The translations under genes and the position numbers were made by a program. A DNA stretch of 64,000 bases from an uncultured Pseudomonadota bacterium (lineage in GTDB: Bacteria; Pseudomonadota; Gammaproteobacteria; Steroidobacterales; Steroidobacteraceae): contig CAIYLH010000097.1 in assembly GCA_903927005.1 (NCBI GenBank), positions 1 through 64,000 on the forward strand, read 5' to 3'. Below are positions 1 to 8,133 of this stretch, in pieces (position 1 is the first letter of the stretch; every line of letters begins with the position of its first letter). The notes below the pieces were generated by a model. It did no database searches. It was not told the origin of the DNA and worked only from the letters and a program-made list of their open reading frames with translations.

Positions 1-55
1 ACTCCTCGCTGTGCCGCCGACGCGTACGCTTCACCGACACTTCTTTCTCGCTCAT
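1..55 (-). CDS. Transposase orfA N-terminus (partial), IS66/IS3-like
   Basis: Reverse complement translates as MSEKEVSVKRTRRRHSEE and runs off the window edge; KRTRRRHSEE resembles transposase OrfA starts. Confidence 0.55.
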   Translation of the reverse strand, partial: MSEKEVSVKRTRRRHSEE

Positions 56-60
56 GTACA

Positions 61-88
61 CGTGTCCACTTGTTTCTTAGTGGACACG
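61..88. repeat. Perfect 10-bp inverted repeat CGTGTCCACT-N8-AGTGGACACG upstream of the transposase start
   Basis: Read directly: cgtgtccact tgtttctt agtggacacg. Confidence 0.8.
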
Positions 89-536
89 ATCATCCTCATC
101 CCGGAAAACTTCCGGTAGATGACTTCACCGGATGCTTACAGCGCAGTGCCGAAAAGTACGGCGCCGGGTATAAAGCGCATCGTCGCGATCACGCCCGCGT
201 TGGCAATCTTGCCGAGCGTGGAACTCCTTGATCATGTCGGCGCCGCAGCCAATTTTCTCTAGGGCTATTCGAACGCGATCTATTTTCTGTTCTTTGGTAC
301 GTAGAAAAATTCTGCTGTCCGAGACGCAATGCTCCGCAGTAGCCCGCACCGACGGATTCGCCGACGTACAAAAACATTCCAAACAGACGTCGTTTCTGCC
401 GCCCGAAACATTTTCGGCAATCCCGACGCGGCGTCAGCAGACACGCCGCGTTAAGCCACTTGTGTCCGTGTCCGAAATCCAGAGGGACCCTCCACATCCA
501 CCGCGACGCATCAATTCGTTCATCGCGGCAAACGCC

Positions 537-1448
537 TTAGCGAACGGACATTTGATCGACCATGTCATTGAGAGCGGCAACGACGCCGTCCAATTCCGGG
601 AACAGGCTGACTCCCGTGGGGCGATTTTTGATACCCGCCAACGTGGCCCCGCCAGCCCAAATTGGAATGCGGCGTGGCAGCAAACGCCTTAGATGCTTCA
701 GGGTCGGTAAAATATCGCGCGCTGGGTAAGCAGCACTGAAGGACAGAGCGACCGCGTCGACATTGTGAGAAGTCGCTGCCAGTTTCAGTTCGTTCAGCGG
801 AATATCTGATCCTAGGCTGACCGTCATTGCACCCTGCTCTGCCAAAACGGCCTCGATCATCAACAACCCGAGAAAATGATGCTCTCCGGGCGGAAGGGCC
901 ATCAATATCTTTGGAGCCCCGCGCTTTGGCTTTAGCCTTAAAATTTGCGCGTGAAAATAACGCTCTATGCAAAAGGAACAGAAGTGCTCGTGATGAATTT
1001 CCACGTCCCCGCGCGCCCATGCATCACCGAGGCCTTTCAGTAACGGGGCGACGACACTACGTGAAAACTGAAGTAGCGTTTTCTTCGCTCGCTTCTTTAC
1101 CAACAGTTTTAGAAATCCAGCCGAGTCTGCTTTCTTAAGCTGCTCGATGAGCTCGCTAGTTGATTCATCGTCGCATACCCGCGGAACCGAAAGGCTCACC
1201 GCGACGTGCAACTTCTCGAGTTCTTCAAGAGTCTTGCCTACGACATAACCGGGACGAAAACCGCCATCGAGCAAGCGTCTGACCAGACGAAGCCGGTTGA
1301 CGGTGTTGACCGAATAGCCCGGTTTTCCCTCAGCCGTGAATTCCAACGGCGGAAATTGAAAGCGCTGGCGCCACTTGCGCAATTGGTCCCTACCGAAGCC
1401 GGTTTCGCGTTCGATATCTGCCGACGCAACAAATAGCCTGGACTTCAT
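537..1448 (-). CDS. MerR-family transcriptional regulator with C-terminal cobalamin-binding domain (CarH/LitR-like)
   Basis: N-terminal MerR-like HTH (ADIERETGFGRDQLRKWRQRF...GYSVNTVNRLRLVRRLLDGGFRPG). C-terminal half has W-x9-EH (WARGDVEIHHEH) and ExHxxG (GEHHFLG), as in AdoCbl-binding CarH-type regulators. Confidence 0.85.
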   Translation of the reverse strand: MKSRLFVASADIERETGFGRDQLRKWRQRFQFPPLEFTAEGKPGYSVNTVNRLRLVRRLLDGGFRPGYVVGKTLEELEKLHVAVSLSVPRVCDDESTSELIEQLKKADSAGFLKLLVKKRAKKTLLQFSRSVVAPLLKGLGDAWARGDVEIHHEHFCSFCIERYFHAQILRLKPKRGAPKILMALPPGEHHFLGLLMIEAVLAEQGAMTVSLGSDIPLNELKLAATSHNVDAVALSFSAAYPARDILPTLKHLRRLLPRRIPIWAGGATLAGIKNRPTGVSLFPELDGVVAALNDMVDQMSVR

Positions 1449-1478
1449 TCAGGACGAGCTTACTCAGAAATTATTCAG

Positions 1479-1505
1479 TTGTCCGCGCTAATTTGTCACG
1501 GACAA
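1479..1505. promoter_or_regulatory. Inverted repeat TTGTCCG-N13-CGGACAA in the divergent intergenic region; candidate operator
   Basis: Perfect 7-bp arms at 1479-1485 and 1499-1505. TTTGTCA occurs at 1492-1498 and again at 1516-1522. Confidence 0.5.
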
Positions 1506-1636
1506 TTTTTGTAATTTTGTCATTATCCGCGGCGAGTCTTTGGGGCTGTAGCCGTCGCCCCGGCATTTGAAGCAAGCCGACCCAGCATCGGGGGCCGCTT
1601 CGCTCAGTCTATAGGTCTAACGAAAGGCTGGATTTC

Positions 1637-2068
1637 ATGCACAACGGCAAATCTATCTGCTACGTGAGTGCCGCTATCAAGCCAATGGTCCAGCGGGAAC
1701 TGGAAAGTGTGCTCGAAATCACCCGGCCATTCAGCGAGAGTAATTCGGTAACGGGTGCTCTGCTTCACGACGACGGCAGCTTCTTTCACTATTTCGAAGG
1801 CCCGGCCGGTGGTGTTGATGCCTTCTATGCCGCCATCAAGACTGCCAGTTGGCATACCGGGATCATCGAGCTGCTGTGTGAGTCGATCACCAAGCGCTCG
1901 ATTCCAAAATGGTACATGGGGTCAACCGATGTACCGCGATCATCGCCGCTTTCGCTTAGATTGTCTGAGTGGAAGCAGCTGAAGCGGCACATCGATCGCG
2001 GTCACGACCAAAGCCCTAGCGTCACCCTGCTCAGAGTGAATCTGGAGAGAACAATACTTGCCTTTTAG
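1637..2068 (+). CDS. BLUF-domain protein (short, single domain), non-canonical flavin site
   Basis: BLUF-like pattern: SICYVSAAI...VTGALLHDDGSFFHYFEGPAGGVDAFYAAI...SIPKWYMGS. The usual Gln in FxQxLEG is His here. Confidence 0.8.
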   Translation: MHNGKSICYVSAAIKPMVQRELESVLEITRPFSESNSVTGALLHDDGSFFHYFEGPAGGVDAFYAAIKTASWHTGIIELLCESITKRSIPKWYMGSTDVPRSSPLSLRLSEWKQLKRHIDRGHDQSPSVTLLRVNLERTILAF

Positions 2069-2322
2069 GGGCACGGCTGCGTCGGTCAAGAGTTTATAGA
2101 GCAGTGAAAATTCCATTCTGGCGGGGTCTACTCACGCAGAATGCAGCCGTCGACGCGCGTCGCGTGGTAAAACGCTGAAATTAGCGTCACGTACGCGCGT
2201 CAGCCATGGCACCGCGGCATGCTTTATTAAGCGGCTTTGGGACCAACAAGTGCGCAAGGAACTGCAGCAACGGGTGCTATATACCGACACGAGCCGACGA
2301 CTTCTAGGCTGATGGGCCTATG

Positions 2323-3123
2323 TCAGTGCTCGTCTCGGCTCTGAGTCGGAGCCCCTGGAAGCAAACGGTATCGAGGATCGAGTTCGCATCGCGCCGAGTC
2401 ACTGCGCTCAAGACGGCAACGCGAAGCGCACTCTGCAGCACAGCGTGCAAACTGGCCGGTGTGCAGCAACCCGAGCTTGCCGCGGATGCGCTGGCGATGG
2501 GACTCCACCGTCTTAGGTCGAATACTGAGCGCGCCGGCAATCGCGGGGCCGTTCAATCCGCGGCCGCTCAGCTGAAATATCTGAAACTCACGCGTCGTGA
2601 GAATATCGAGCGCGCAGTCAGGCGTCTGACGGGAATACGGCTCTGGCTTCAAGAAGCGCGTGTGATAGAGCGCCACAAGCGAGTCGCTAAGCGATAGATC
2701 CCCAACGCTCACCCGCTGAAGCGCCTGCAGGATTTCCGCTAACGACGCGGCCTTCATGACATAGCCGCGGGCGCCGGCGCGGAGCAATCGCTCGGCGTAC
2801 ATGCTCTCGTGACGCTTAGAGAGCACGAGAATAGCGATTGTTGGTGAGATTTCCAGGGCGAGCCTGATCAACTCAAAAGCATCCCCGTCACGTAGCTCCG
2901 TATCCGTCACCACGACATCGGGGCGCTGTTCACGAATGAACTCCAGCCCCTGAGCAACAGACGATGCTTCGCCACAGACAACGAACCCGGGTTGGTTGCT
3001 CAGGGCCTGCCGTAGGCCAGCGCGAACGACGGCCTGCTCGTCAATCAACAACACCCGGCGATGACTGACTGCCTGTGAAGCGACGCCCGCGAAATTCGGC
3101 GAGGGTGATGGGTTCAATTCCAT
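2323..3123 (-). CDS. LuxR/NarL-family response regulator
   Basis: Receiver domain (RVLLIDEQAVVRAGL...DVVVTDTELRDGDAF...ILVLSKRHE...GARGYVMKAAS) and LuxR HTH (LTTREFQIFQLSGRGLNGPAIAGALSIRPKTVESHRQRIRGKLGL). Confidence 0.88.
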   Translation of the reverse strand: MELNPSPSPNFAGVASQAVSHRRVLLIDEQAVVRAGLRQALSNQPGFVVCGEASSVAQGLEFIREQRPDVVVTDTELRDGDAFELIRLALEISPTIAILVLSKRHESMYAERLLRAGARGYVMKAASLAEILQALQRVSVGDLSLSDSLVALYHTRFLKPEPYSRQTPDCALDILTTREFQIFQLSGRGLNGPAIAGALSIRPKTVESHRQRIRGKLGLLHTGQFARCAAECASRCRLERSDSARCELDPRYRLLPGAPTQSRDEH

Positions 3124-3243
3124 AGTGCTTTGGCTGAATGCCGAGGGCGAAACGAAGCGACGCGACGATGACGAGCGACCGACTACTGAAAGGCAGCGCT
3201 ACACCTTTTGCATTATTCGCTCTCAGGCGCCAAAGAACCACTA

Positions 3244-3301
3244 GCCGAGCTACGCCGAGTCGCTACGTTCATACGCATTTGTACCGGGCCGAGCTACGCC
3301 G
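3244..3301. repeat. 14-bp direct repeat GCCGAGCTACGCCG (3244-3257 and 3288-3301) in a non-coding stretch
   Basis: Read directly from the sequence; the two copies are 44 bp apart. Confidence 0.75.
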
Positions 3302-4081
3302 TTTTGCAGGCAAGCGCCCTTGGGCAGTGGCGGGCAGGCGGTGGACAGTTTCGGCGCTGTCCTTGGCCACGTTCTTGGATCCATCAGTGGCCCGGTAATC
3401 GGGCCAGTCCGCACTAAGCGTGGGCCGCTCCGCGTAGCCGGAGTGGGCACGCGACCTTGAGAATTCGTGACGACAGACCACAACCCAGAGTGCGGCGCGG
3501 CGCGGTTCTGCAGATTTTACAGTGATGACGGGAAATGAACGTGCCGCTGAGCTTTCTCCAGACGCCGCGCGAGGGATCTCGCGGTTATAGCGGGCGCCGC
3601 AGATTATCTTCCTCGCCGGAGCCGTTGCAGGCAGCGGTCTGCTGCTGTCTTCACCTAAGACTAGGCTCGCTATGCTGTCGAACAGGCCGATCCCGGCCAC
3701 ACCTACTCTGATCGTCGTTGAGCCAGGACTTTGACCAAACATCTGCCCGATAGAAACGAACAGCCTTCCGCCTCGCTCGCTCGGCCTTCAGGGCGCCGCA
3801 TTACTGATGAACGCAGCAGGGGAGTTCTTTACCTCGGAAACACTGGGCGAACACCGTAATAGCTGGCGGAAGCCCGTTCTTCAAGGAACATGCGGTCAGC
3901 ACAACCAGAACGCCGTAAGTTCGCGCGAGGCGGCTGCCTCGTCTCTGTCGGAGGTCGCACTAACACCGCTAATAGCCCCGCCGCTTATGAGCCAGCTACA
4001 ACGGCGACCGTTATCGCCGTACTGAATATCACTGGCTGCCGTCGGCCAGCCGTGAAACGGGCCTTGAACCGCAATATCCGT

Positions 4082-5140
4082 TCAATCCGCCCGATTCTTC
4101 CGCTCAAGTGACAGCATCATGAGGATGAGCCAACTGAGCACCTCTGCAATGATCGCACCACTCCAGACGATGCCGATCACCCAGCCGAGTGCCGCGACCA
4201 GCAAACCGCCGGAGACGATCACATGAGACTTCAACCAAGTCATTTTCCAAATTGACACTTCGTCGTACGCCGTTTGCGCGGACTTGACGCTCTCGCCATT
4301 CATTGTCACGAGCGCCTGTGCACTGCTCTGCGCCTGGCCGGCGCTGCGATACACCCGATCGCCCTCACTAGCCGCTCGTTCTGCGCTCACGGCCGCTCCT
4401 GTAGCGTCGCCCAACGCCAAAAAGGCCTGCTTCAGACTCAGGCATCGGTCAGCTGTAAAGCCACTCCAAGACTCACACTTGGCGTCAATCTGAGTAGCTG
4501 TGTTTGCTGCTGCGCTCTTTGCGTTTTCCTCGCTGGTGGCGTCCAGCACGGCGTTCACTGCGCCGCCGAGATCAAGACCCTCGCCCGCCGCTTCGACGGC
4601 CGACTTCGCCTTCTCCTTCGCAACTGCACGCTTCGTACTATCAGCGCTTGCCCGATCGGCGTCAGCCTTGAGTCGATCGGCGTATCCGGGCTTGCCGGCA
4701 GCGTCTAGATCCTTTTGGGCGCTGTCGAGGGCAGCCTTGGCGCTATCCAACTCGTCGCGCAGCGGTTGCCTCGCGGCAATTTCTGCCTCCGGATACAAGG
4801 CGATCAGTGACGACGAAATGCCACCGGCAAGGACCAGAATAGCAAGCACAGCAATTACAAGATAATTGAAACGATTTGCTATATGCAGGACATGCTCGTG
4901 GGAGTTGATATACGGACGCTCGAGTTCGTCCGCTTTCTCGAACATCAGCATCGTGCGCTTGAGGAACTGAAACGGCACTGTAAAAAACGAAGCCGCAACG
5001 TTGCGCATTCCGGCCAATGCTGCGCGAGTATTCTCGCCTCCGAGCCAGCGAAGCACGCCCGCGATGACGATCAGAAAAACCGCGAGAACAATTAGGGGAT
5101 GCTCGCGAAATACCACAAAAAATCCAACTAACGACCCCAT
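4082..5140 (-). CDS. Hypothetical multi-pass membrane protein with a large Ala/Lys-rich soluble segment
   Basis: 352-aa ORF with hydrophobic segments near both termini (HPLIVLAVFLIVIAGVL, YLVIAVLAILVLAGGISSSLIAL, VIVSGGLLVAALGWVIGIVWSGAIIAEVLSWLILMML) and a heptad-like Ala-rich middle. No family recognised. Confidence 0.7.
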   Translation of the reverse strand: MGSLVGFFVVFREHPLIVLAVFLIVIAGVLRWLGGENTRAALAGMRNVAASFFTVPFQFLKRTMLMFEKADELERPYINSHEHVLHIANRFNYLVIAVLAILVLAGGISSSLIALYPEAEIAARQPLRDELDSAKAALDSAQKDLDAAGKPGYADRLKADADRASADSTKRAVAKEKAKSAVEAAGEGLDLGGAVNAVLDATSEENAKSAAANTATQIDAKCESWSGFTADRCLSLKQAFLALGDATGAAVSAERAASEGDRVYRSAGQAQSSAQALVTMNGESVKSAQTAYDEVSIWKMTWLKSHVIVSGGLLVAALGWVIGIVWSGAIIAEVLSWLILMMLSLERKNRAD

Positions 5141-5456
5141 AGCAGCTCTCCTGGTAACTTGCGCCGTTCAAACCGCCGGGCCGACGGATGAAATATTTTT
5201 GATCTAATTATATTTTTATCAAGGAACGCCCTCGCGGCGGTCAAGCTCTGATCCAACAGCTTGGCTGGTGCTTTACGCAACCTCCCCACTCAAGGTTAAG
5301 CCAGCCAAGCGCGTTCCAATACATGCTGAACGCCTGCACTGGATGAAAGGCGGCAAACATCGCACAGTTACAGATCGGACGCTCACCATATGCGCAGGAA
5401 GAGCGGAATGCTTCAAGGCGCACAAACAACAGCGCCTTATAAAAGTGACGCGCCGA

Positions 5457-6740
5457 TTATAGGGTCGCTACCATCGCAACGACCGTCGCCGCCATTACGA
5501 GCGTCGCGACCCAGCCAAGCCACCGTAGTCGCGCGGGTATCACGAAGCTGCCCATGATGTCGCTGCGGGATGCCAGCATCATCATAACGACCATGATTGG
5601 GACCGCAATTACACCGTTCATGACTGCGCTCCAAAGCAGCGCGCGCATGGGATCGAGGTGCGTGAAGTTCAACACGACACCGCCAACCGTTGCGAACGCG
5701 ATGATGCCGTAGAACTTCTTTGCCTCGTGCAGCTTCATATCGAGGCCCGACTGCCAATCAAAACATTCCGTTACTGCATACGCTGCAGAACCGGCCAGTA
5801 CCGGCACTGCGAGCATGCCGGTACCGATGATACCGAGGCTGAATAACAGGAACGCCATTGATCCGCCCAGCGGACGAAGCGCCTCCGCCGCCTCAGCTGA
5901 CGTACGAATATCGGTAATCCCTGCCACATGCAGCGTCGCGGCGGTGCTCATGATGATGAAGAATGCAACGACGTTGGAGAAACCCATGCCCAGGAGCGTG
6001 TCCCAGCGAATCCGGCGTAAATGTCGCCGCGCCACCGCTGCCACATGGGGCAGTAGTTCAACGCCACCCTCTCGAACCGCGACCGTGCGCAGCGCCTCCA
6101 TTTCCTGGGCCGCCTGCCAAAAGAACAGGTACGGACTTATAGTCGTGCCAAACAGGGCAACGACGATTGTCACCGCGTCATGATCAAGCACGAAACGGGG
6201 TATCGCGACCTCGCGCAGAACCTCGGCCCAGTGCACGTGCACAGTGAAGATGACCGCGACGTAGGACAGCAATGTCAGCGTAAGCCACTTCAAGTAGCGC
6301 ACGTACGTTGCGTAACTCAGAAACACCTGCAGCATCAGGCACAACAGGCCAAAGGTTACAGAGTAGACATGCGCCGACCCGCCGAGCAGCAGCCGTAGGG
6401 CTTCTCCCATGGCCGCGATATCGGCAGCAATATTGATCGTGTTGGCAACTAGCAATAGCCCGACGATCGCGTACAGCACGCTGCGCGGGAAGGCCACCTT
6501 GATATTCGCGGCCAATCCGCGGCCCGTGATGCACCCGAGTCGGGCGCTGACCATCTGGATTCCGGCCATTAATGGGTAGGTAAAGACGACCGTCCACAAC
6601 ATGCTGTAGCCGAACTGGGCACCAGCCTGTGAATACGTCGCGATACCACTCGGATCATCGTCTGCGGCGCCCGTAATGAGCCCGGGACCGAGCTTCTTCA
6701 GTCGCGGGTCATTCGCGATGTTCTTCAGAAAGTTGACCAT
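5457..6740 (-). CDS. Nramp-family divalent metal transporter-like protein, atypical subgroup (DPSG / SPY motifs)
   Basis: GPGLITGAADDDPSGIATYSQAGAQFGY...TGRGLAANIK...ALFGTTISPYLFFWQAAQEME. Start chosen at ATG (MVNFLKNIANDPRLKKLGPG). Confidence 0.87.
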   Translation of the reverse strand: MVNFLKNIANDPRLKKLGPGLITGAADDDPSGIATYSQAGAQFGYSMLWTVVFTYPLMAGIQMVSARLGCITGRGLAANIKVAFPRSVLYAIVGLLLVANTINIAADIAAMGEALRLLLGGSAHVYSVTFGLLCLMLQVFLSYATYVRYLKWLTLTLLSYVAVIFTVHVHWAEVLREVAIPRFVLDHDAVTIVVALFGTTISPYLFFWQAAQEMEALRTVAVREGGVELLPHVAAVARRHLRRIRWDTLLGMGFSNVVAFFIIMSTAATLHVAGITDIRTSAEAAEALRPLGGSMAFLLFSLGIIGTGMLAVPVLAGSAAYAVTECFDWQSGLDMKLHEAKKFYGIIAFATVGGVVLNFTHLDPMRALLWSAVMNGVIAVPIMVVMMMLASRSDIMGSFVIPARLRWLGWVATLVMAATVVAMVATL

Positions 6741-7044
6741 CGCAACATCCCCATATGCAGGAACGGCAGGCTGACGCAGAACAGAACTCTCTATGCACAC
6801 CACGCGTTCGGTGGTCCCCCAGGGCGAACCTCGGCATGACCAAGTCGCGGAACAGCACCTGCCGTCTGGGCAACCGCTCGCACTATTTGCTCAGGCGGGC
6901 GGTTCACGCGACCCAAATCGCCTCTACATTAGATGCAAAAAGAACGCCGGGTAACGCGGCTCCTCGGACAGATGATCGCTTTCAGCGCGACGATTGTTCG
7001 TCCACGCGAGCGAGTCAAGCTACTCCCAGAACAGACGAGTTGCC

Positions 7045-7519
7045 TCAGCCAACTGAACGAGCACGACGCCGCGACGGATATTTCGCACCAGGCATCCGCT
7101 CCGATTGATCGGGATCGGGGGGGCCCTTGAGCTCCACCATGTTGCCGTCCGGGTCGGTCAGATACATCGAAGGGCCATGGCCGAGCGCGCCGTAGCGGCG
7201 TCCGACGATGCCGGGCTTGACGCCCTTTCGCTGCAGGAATGCACCGATCTTCTTCTCGTCGAAGCTCTCCAGCTGCACACAGAAGTGATCGACATTACGA
7301 CGTTTCCGGCCTGCAGCAGCGCCACCTTTGGCGCCCTCGGCGCTTTCGACGTCAACAAGATCAATCAGTGCGGATCCCGCGCGGAGCTGGGTCAGCCCCA
7401 GCACAGGCAGTACTCTTTCAACAGTGCATCCAAGATGTGCGATACCAAGCAACCGCGCGCTTGACATCAGCCACCCGGAGCACGATGTGATCGAGTGCTT
7501 TTACTGCAATGACCGTCAT
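7045..7519 (-). pseudogene. VOC-family (glyoxalase/dioxygenase-like) protein, frameshifted
   Basis: From ATG at 7519 (minus) the frame reads MTVIAVKALDHIVLRVADVKRAVAWYRTSWMHC*. The rest (LGCTVERVLPVLGLTQLRAG...NVDHFCVQLESFDEKKIGAFL...SMYLTDPDGNMVELKGPP) continues in another frame. Confidence 0.8.
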
Positions 7520-7788
7520 GTTCAAGCTCCTGAATATGCATGCTCTTGCAGCCCACTATGCCACAAGTGTGCCGTTAGTCGCCGGCAGGGAAAGATTCTG
7601 AACTAACTGAACGGGCTGCGCGCAATCACCCTGCGACCGTCTTGTCGGCGAGAAAGTCGCGGCGCGACGATCCGATCGATCACAGACAGTGATTAACGCA
7701 GGATATCGAATGCGACGACGGGCGCGCCGGCCGGAAGCGCCGACGTCGATTCAGCTCATGCATTCCAGCCGTGAGCAGGATGGAAAGC

Positions 7789-8133
7789 TCAGGCCTTGCG
7801 AACGAACTCGGATTTCAGCTTCATCGCGCCGAATCCGTCGATGCGGCAATCGATGTTGTGATCCCCCTCGACCAGCCGTATGCCCTTTACCTTCGTACCG
7901 GCCTTGAGCACCGAGGATGCACCCTTCACCTTGAGGTCCTTGATGACGGTCACCGAATCGCCATCAACCAGCACGTTGCCGTTAGCATCCTTGTAGATAA
8001 CGGCATCATCGGTCGGCGTCTCGACAGTCTGCGCGGTCCATTCGTGCGCGCATTCCGGGCAAACAAACTTGCCGTCATCCGCATACGTGTAGGTCGATGT
8101 GCACTTCGGGCAAGGAGGAAGGAGGTCGGTCAT
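7789..8133 (-). CDS. PhnA/YjdM-like zinc-ribbon protein
   Basis: [32 protein letters not shown]...[66 protein letters not shown]. Confidence 0.9.

Follow-up and report, generated by a model that had tools for sequence, protein, structure and literature searches.

The divergent gene pair and its surroundings

Near the start of the window, a stretch of 64,000 nucleotides from an uncultured bacterium of the Steroidobacteraceae, two genes diverge from a gap of 188 bp (Table 1). One encodes a MerR-family regulator of 303 amino acids and the other a stand-alone BLUF-fold protein of 143 amino acids. A divergent MerR/BLUF pair had already been read here in the first-pass annotation; we confirmed both open reading frames, and Pfam supports both assignments. 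The BLUF gene stands alone at the locus, with no other obvious photoprotective gene adjoining it. Just downstream of it, and convergent with it, lies a gene for a NarL/FixJ-type response regulator (2323-3123, minus strand).

The region of the pair has a G+C content of 54%, compared with 65% for the window, and its GC3 falls below the 5th percentile of the other ORFs in the window. From these two values, a recent transfer of the pair region is likely. Over positions 1-8000 of the window the G+C content is 54-60%, lowest over the regulator-BLUF pair, and it is possible that the segment at the contig start was acquired.

Table 1. Features of the regulator-BLUF locus (positions in the window)
Feature	Position	Strand	Basis
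MerR-family regulator, CarH/LitR type	537..1448	-	Pfam matches; phmmer; AlphaFold/Foldseek
ExHxxG lower axial ligand motif: Glu189, His191, Gly194 (His191 = CarH His177)	867..884	-	Alignment, invariant columns
GxxW/Wx9EH segment: Gly141, Trp144, Glu154, His155 (= CarH 128, 131, 141, 142)	984..1028	-	Alignment, invariant columns
Operator-like palindrome TTGTC-N3-GACAA (TTGTCACGGACAA)	1493..1505	.	Upstream enrichment in family members
Stand-alone BLUF-fold protein, 143 aa, without the canonical flavin-contacting Asn and Gln	1637..2068	+	Pfam BLUF; Foldseek
Ser33, encoded by AGC, in place of the canonical Asn (AppA Asn45)	1733..1735	+	Alignments
His51, encoded by CAC, in place of the canonical Gln (AppA Gln63)	1787..1789	+	Alignments

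The regulator, its predicted cobalamin site and its candidate operator

The regulator matches the Pfam family MerR_1 (E = 4.3e-8), with matches to B12-binding (8.6e-7) and B12-binding_2 (1.9e-4) both lying just under the cut-off, and phmmer relates it to Thermus CarH at E = 4e-20. It comprises a winged-helix DNA-binding domain (residues ~9-65), a four-helix bundle (~95-171) and a Rossmann B12-binding domain (~180-302). An AlphaFold model built with 24 aligned sequences has a pLDDT of 93, and its top-ranked PDB matches in Foldseek are all CarH, with TM-scores for the cobalamin domain of about 0.8-0.86 by target length; among known folds it comes nearest to that of Thermus CarH. Both motifs quoted in the first-pass annotation could be located: when the regulator is aligned with Thermus CarH, WARGDVEIHHEH and GEHHFLG fall at Trp131, Glu141-His142 and His177 of the latter. 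Counting on the translation, the ExHxxG motif is followed by GxxxP (Gly213, Pro217), x41, SxS, x27 and GG. The classic B12-binding motif is D/ExHx2G, x41, SxT/V, x22-27, GG (PMC9304148); the regulator reads EHHFLG, x41, SFS, x27, GG, the sole change being a conservative one, Ser for Thr/Val. It also carries, as GDAW, EH, GEHH and GSDIP, the full light-response signature GxxW/EH/GxxH/GxxxP, which was defined and validated on other proteins (PMC11796333).

These data make a convincing case that the regulator is a CarH/LitR-type MerR protein. It is a relative of CarH and not a narrow CarH equivalog, scoring 101.7 bits against the NCBIfam equivalog model, for which the cut-off is 400. The earlier description of the protein as CarH-like is backed by motif and fold, by the neighbourhoods of its orthologues, by an operator-like site common to them and by an adenosyltransferase gene in the genome. 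Because that gene encodes a PduO-type cobalamin adenosyltransferase, adenosylcobalamin (AdoCbl) could probably be made by this organism if cobalamin is available; a CobA/BtuR-type adenosyltransferase is absent from the genome. A second CarH-like MerR gene of the same genome (L065:6194-7090, contig C5) adjoins genes of an Mla-type ABC transporter, and its product has His132 and carries Arg at the conserved His142 (ER for EH).

Every CarH signature residue is kept in the regulator except His132. The place of this upper axial ligand, within the GxxW/Wx9EH segment, is taken by Ala145, and the bis-His arrangement of CarH is accordingly missing. The first-pass annotation was right about W-x9-EH and ExHxxG and overlooked this alanine. 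The 12 nearest orthologues of the same family have Ser, Ala or Met at position 132, never His. In Thermus CarH, the H132A variant binds AdoCbl normally but is largely tetrameric after light (PMC10442372); an earlier report of H132A disassembly is mentioned in the same paper. The residue at position 132 varies: CtMerR has Arg there, yet responds to light, and an alternative release route was proposed for it (PMC11796333). With Ala in place of His132, light release of the present regulator would therefore have to proceed differently, as has been suggested for CtMerR, and light sensing with a differing release step is plausible. Thermus CarH depends on His132 to disassemble fully in the light; the nearest members of the subfamily, which lack this residue, are therefore good subjects for asking how a CarH-type protein functions when bis-His ligation is not available.

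About 20 orthologues of the regulator, with 32-37% identity, were found in a minority of the genomes of the same family and the same class. Their neighbours are mostly photoprotection genes, namely those for folE2, lycopene cyclase, glutathione peroxidase (GSHPx), cyclopropane synthase (CMAS) and amine oxidase; SnoaL and short-chain dehydrogenase (SDR) genes also occur. These neighbourhoods resemble the light-induced gene sets known for LitR.

The palindrome TTGTC-N3-GACAA is a conserved feature of this subfamily. The 4,620 bp that precede 20 family members hold 18 exact sites, and the 234,743 bp elsewhere at the same loci hold none; five of the 20 members have not even a one-mismatch site upstream. 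In relatives the palindrome is often paired at a distance of 62-64 bp, as it is upstream of many of the MerR orthologues in L106-L115 and L169-L177. A spacing of about 63 bp corresponds to six helical turns and suggests two dimers on one face of the DNA. In the window the palindrome occurs as a single copy, inside the intergenic gap, where chance would give 0.02 per 64 kb. It overlaps the -35 element of a putative regulator promoter (minus strand, 1499-1470), itself a weak promoter match. No other observation argues as strongly as this palindrome for the gap being a divergent promoter region under regulation. A genome-wide palindrome regulon was considered and rejected: the genome holds five exact sites, and a reversed-pattern control gives six. 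Since the site count is at the level of the control, at least three of the four palindromes outside the window overlap ORFs, and the genome's single photolyase has no good palindrome site, we claim no further targets. The DNA-binding domain of the regulator itself departs from near-invariant residues at six positions (E27R, R28Q, Y30F, P35L, R37F and R43P), and these substitutions could change how it binds the palindrome or prevent it from binding at all.

The BLUF-fold protein and the conservation of the pair

The BLUF-fold protein, the sole BLUF protein of the genome, matches Pfam BLUF with E = 3.6e-18 (65.9 bits, cut-off 25), and its model matches AppA, PixD and OaPAC at a Foldseek probability of 1.00. 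The fold is intact in the modelled core; the C-terminal third is modelled poorly, and none of our conclusions depends on it. A single-domain BLUF protein, as first annotated, is thus borne out; what had escaped notice is the loss of the canonical Asn and Gln. Each of these residues is present in 72 of 73 distinct homologues, and the window protein is the only exception at both positions. Its departures from near-invariant residues are N33S, Q51H, R66A and F89I, while Tyr9 (AppA Tyr21), Trp92 and Met94 are kept. The nearest BLUF relatives, from Burkholderiales and Gammaproteobacteria, reach 46% identity and retain the canonical Asn and Gln.

We know of no characterised BLUF protein with His at the Gln position, and some photochemistry with His51 is in principle conceivable. 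When the Gln is removed, the BLUF signalling state is reported not to form (PMC3915823), and Q50A and Q63E variants mimic the lit state, being pseudo-lit, according to work cited in PMC6695109. With Ser33 for Asn and His51 for Gln, the protein probably has no working flavin switch and is probably not a working blue-light receptor. As it has lost two light-sensing residues, light would probably enter at this locus through B12 alone.

A conserved adjacency of CarH-like and BLUF genes was not found, either in the genus or around the BLUF loci nearest to this one. At a threshold of E <= 1e-20 the regulator is missing from every other genome of the genus, and the BLUF proteins most similar to this one within the genus and the order are encoded next to other genes. 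Around the 30 nearest BLUF loci of GTDB r220 there is no CarH-like MerR gene within flanks of up to 6 kb, which are shorter at some contig ends. Of 46 BLUF loci spanning 7 kb or more, 2 hold any CarH-like MerR gene, and these belong to another subfamily. In two genomes of the same family (L063:5685-8938 and L064:4614-8221), a CarH-like MerR gene of a different subfamily is divergent from a cluster ending in folE-BLUF, which shows that a CarH-type regulon can include a short BLUF gene. In these two loci the regulator has Glu at position 132, the BLUF protein is canonical and short, folE encodes GTP cyclohydrolase I, and a lipocalin gene adjoins the regulator gene; the L064 gap contains CarH-like repeats such as TATACA-N5-ATACA. 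Long BLUF ORFs of about 450 amino acids were also seen (L105:6131-7480 in G157, and one in G130:C9). The C-terminal part of the L105 ORF holds GESHAMG, which is ExHxxG-like and suggests an AppA-like fusion of a BLUF domain to a B12-binding-type domain.

The first-pass annotation had envisaged a two-chromophore switch, in which the BLUF protein senses blue light via FAD and modulates the B12 sensor. The BLUF fold with its kept Tyr, Trp and Met would suit such a switch, and the precedents of BluF-BluR and short LOV-PmlR2 establish that a MerR protein can be the target of a flavin photoreceptor. We nevertheless regard it as very unlikely: the Gln of the flavin hydrogen-bond switch has become His and the flavin-contacting Asn has become Ser, both changes being unique among the 73 homologues, and the pair is not conserved.

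The departures from near-invariant residues in the two proteins fit either co-specialisation or relaxed selection. If the latter, the pair could have been acquired horizontally and be drifting without a current function, its BLUF photochemistry lost and the DNA-binding domain of its regulator being lost. The low G+C content and GC3 and the absence of the regulator from other genus members agree with such decay, as do the departures themselves and the lack of any close relative (the best are about 37% for the regulator and 46% for the BLUF protein). Against it, neither ORF is truncated or interrupted, in both genes the coding frame has the best score, though weakly, the B12-site residues are all kept apart from His132, and the palindrome is still an exact one where it would be expected. 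We therefore think decay rather improbable.

Proposed regulation and comparison with known systems

Based on these observations, we propose that a CarH-type repressor controls a divergent, photodead BLUF-fold target, a model to which we give an even chance of being correct. In the dark and with AdoCbl, the regulator would bind the palindrome and keep its own promoter silent, together with the BLUF-fold gene on the other side of the gap. On illumination, the effect of light on the B12 cofactor would release the regulator, and both genes would be expressed. The BLUF-fold protein would be a light-induced yet light-insensitive product and no photoreceptor. The sequence itself shows the family assignment, the conservation of the palindrome, the residue losses and the lack of conservation of the pair; AdoCbl binding, light release and repression of the BLUF gene by the regulator we infer. 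The single palindrome in the window counts against the model, in that many relatives carry two, and so do the Ala at position 132 and the altered residues of the regulator's DNA-binding domain.

The BLUF-fold protein may in addition be an antirepressor of the neighbouring MerR protein, perhaps locked in a lit-like form. Such a role is reasonable because BluF antagonises BluR, CarS antagonises CarA and Cystobacter CarH, and short LOV acts on PmlR2; direct antirepression is speculative all the same, and we hold it to be unlikely. Decidedly improbable, in our view, is a further version in which a BLUF domain has lost its flavin photosensing and come to serve, permanently in a lit-like state, as the antirepressor of a B12 photoreceptor of the CarH type. 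In that case B12 would detect the light and the BLUF fold would provide an output contact only, giving a feed-forward light switch. Alternatively, the locus could be a simple regulator-target pair, the BLUF-fold gene being a member of a photoprotective regulon whose product has a function unrelated to the repressor, for example with another partner. The CarH-like regulators of relatives are typically divergent to targets such as folE2 and lycopene cyclase, the clusters of L063 and L064 end with BLUF genes, and no evidence demands contact between the two proteins. This alternative overlaps the model of a CarH-type repressor with a photodead target and differs only by denying antirepression. Nothing specific opposes it, apart from the BLUF gene lacking an obvious photoprotective neighbour, and we consider it a possible but minority explanation.

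If the BLUF-fold protein does act on the repressor without flavin photochemistry, the output surface of BLUF would be separable from its light switch, and the protein would be a natural test of what Asn and Gln contribute. A lit-like antirepressor, if true, would make one photoreceptor family a non-photosensory effector of another. On more solid ground, the palindromic operator-like site of the subfamily could allow its regulon to be predicted throughout the class.

The kinds of part at this locus are already known. The first-pass annotation saw in the pair the best candidate in the window for an undescribed signalling module; a LitR/CarH regulator with a short flavin photoreceptor has already been described, as class II LitR with short LOV. 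What we did not find in the literature searched is a B12-type, CarH-type regulator combined with a BLUF protein that seems to be photodead, or the palindromic site of the subfamily. That search, of partial coverage, returned no description of CarH or LitR with BLUF, nor of a degenerate BLUF.

In domain order, Wx9EH, ExHxxG, GxxxP and predicted fold, the regulator is like CarH of Thermus thermophilus and class I LitR, and its orthologues share with them the divergent arrangement with photoprotection genes. It differs from Thermus CarH in having Ala at the bis-His position 132 and shares about 25% identity with it. The operators differ as well: CarH and class I LitR use tandem 11-bp direct repeats, whereas the conserved site here is a palindrome, often present twice. 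The proposed antirepressor would have an analogue in CarS of the Myxococcales (CarA-CarS and Cystobacter CarH-CarS), a small antagonist of a CarH-type repressor that has, to our knowledge, no known relation to BLUF. CarS antagonises both CarA and Cystobacter CarH (PMC9304148).

The locus also recalls BluR-BluF (YcgE-YcgF) of E. coli, in which a MerR-like repressor adjoins the gene of a BLUF-domain protein that antagonises it. Membership of that system was rejected. BluR belongs to the MlrA/BluR paralogue pair, whereas the present regulator is of the CarH type with a B12 motif, and the partner here is a 143-residue single-domain protein without EAL and with its switch residues lost. PmlR2 and PmSB-LOV of Pseudomonas mendocina, a class II LitR system, likewise combine a LitR/CarH-family repressor with an adjacently encoded effectorless protein of the flavin-photoreceptor type. 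The PmlR2 regulon includes folE, and its operator is TGTACA-N12-TGTACA. Of the B12 domain, PmlR2 retains the four-helix-bundle part alone, whereas our regulator has the Rossmann B12-binding domain, and PmSB-LOV is a photoactive LOV protein, whereas the partner here is a BLUF protein; the pair thus falls outside the class II LitR/short LOV module. Finally, the BLUF-fold protein shares its fold, the conserved Tyr and the Trp/Met with PixD/Slr1694, BlsA and the BLUF domain of AppA. Those proteins all keep the Gln, in contrast to the Ser and His that replace Asn and Gln in the protein described here.
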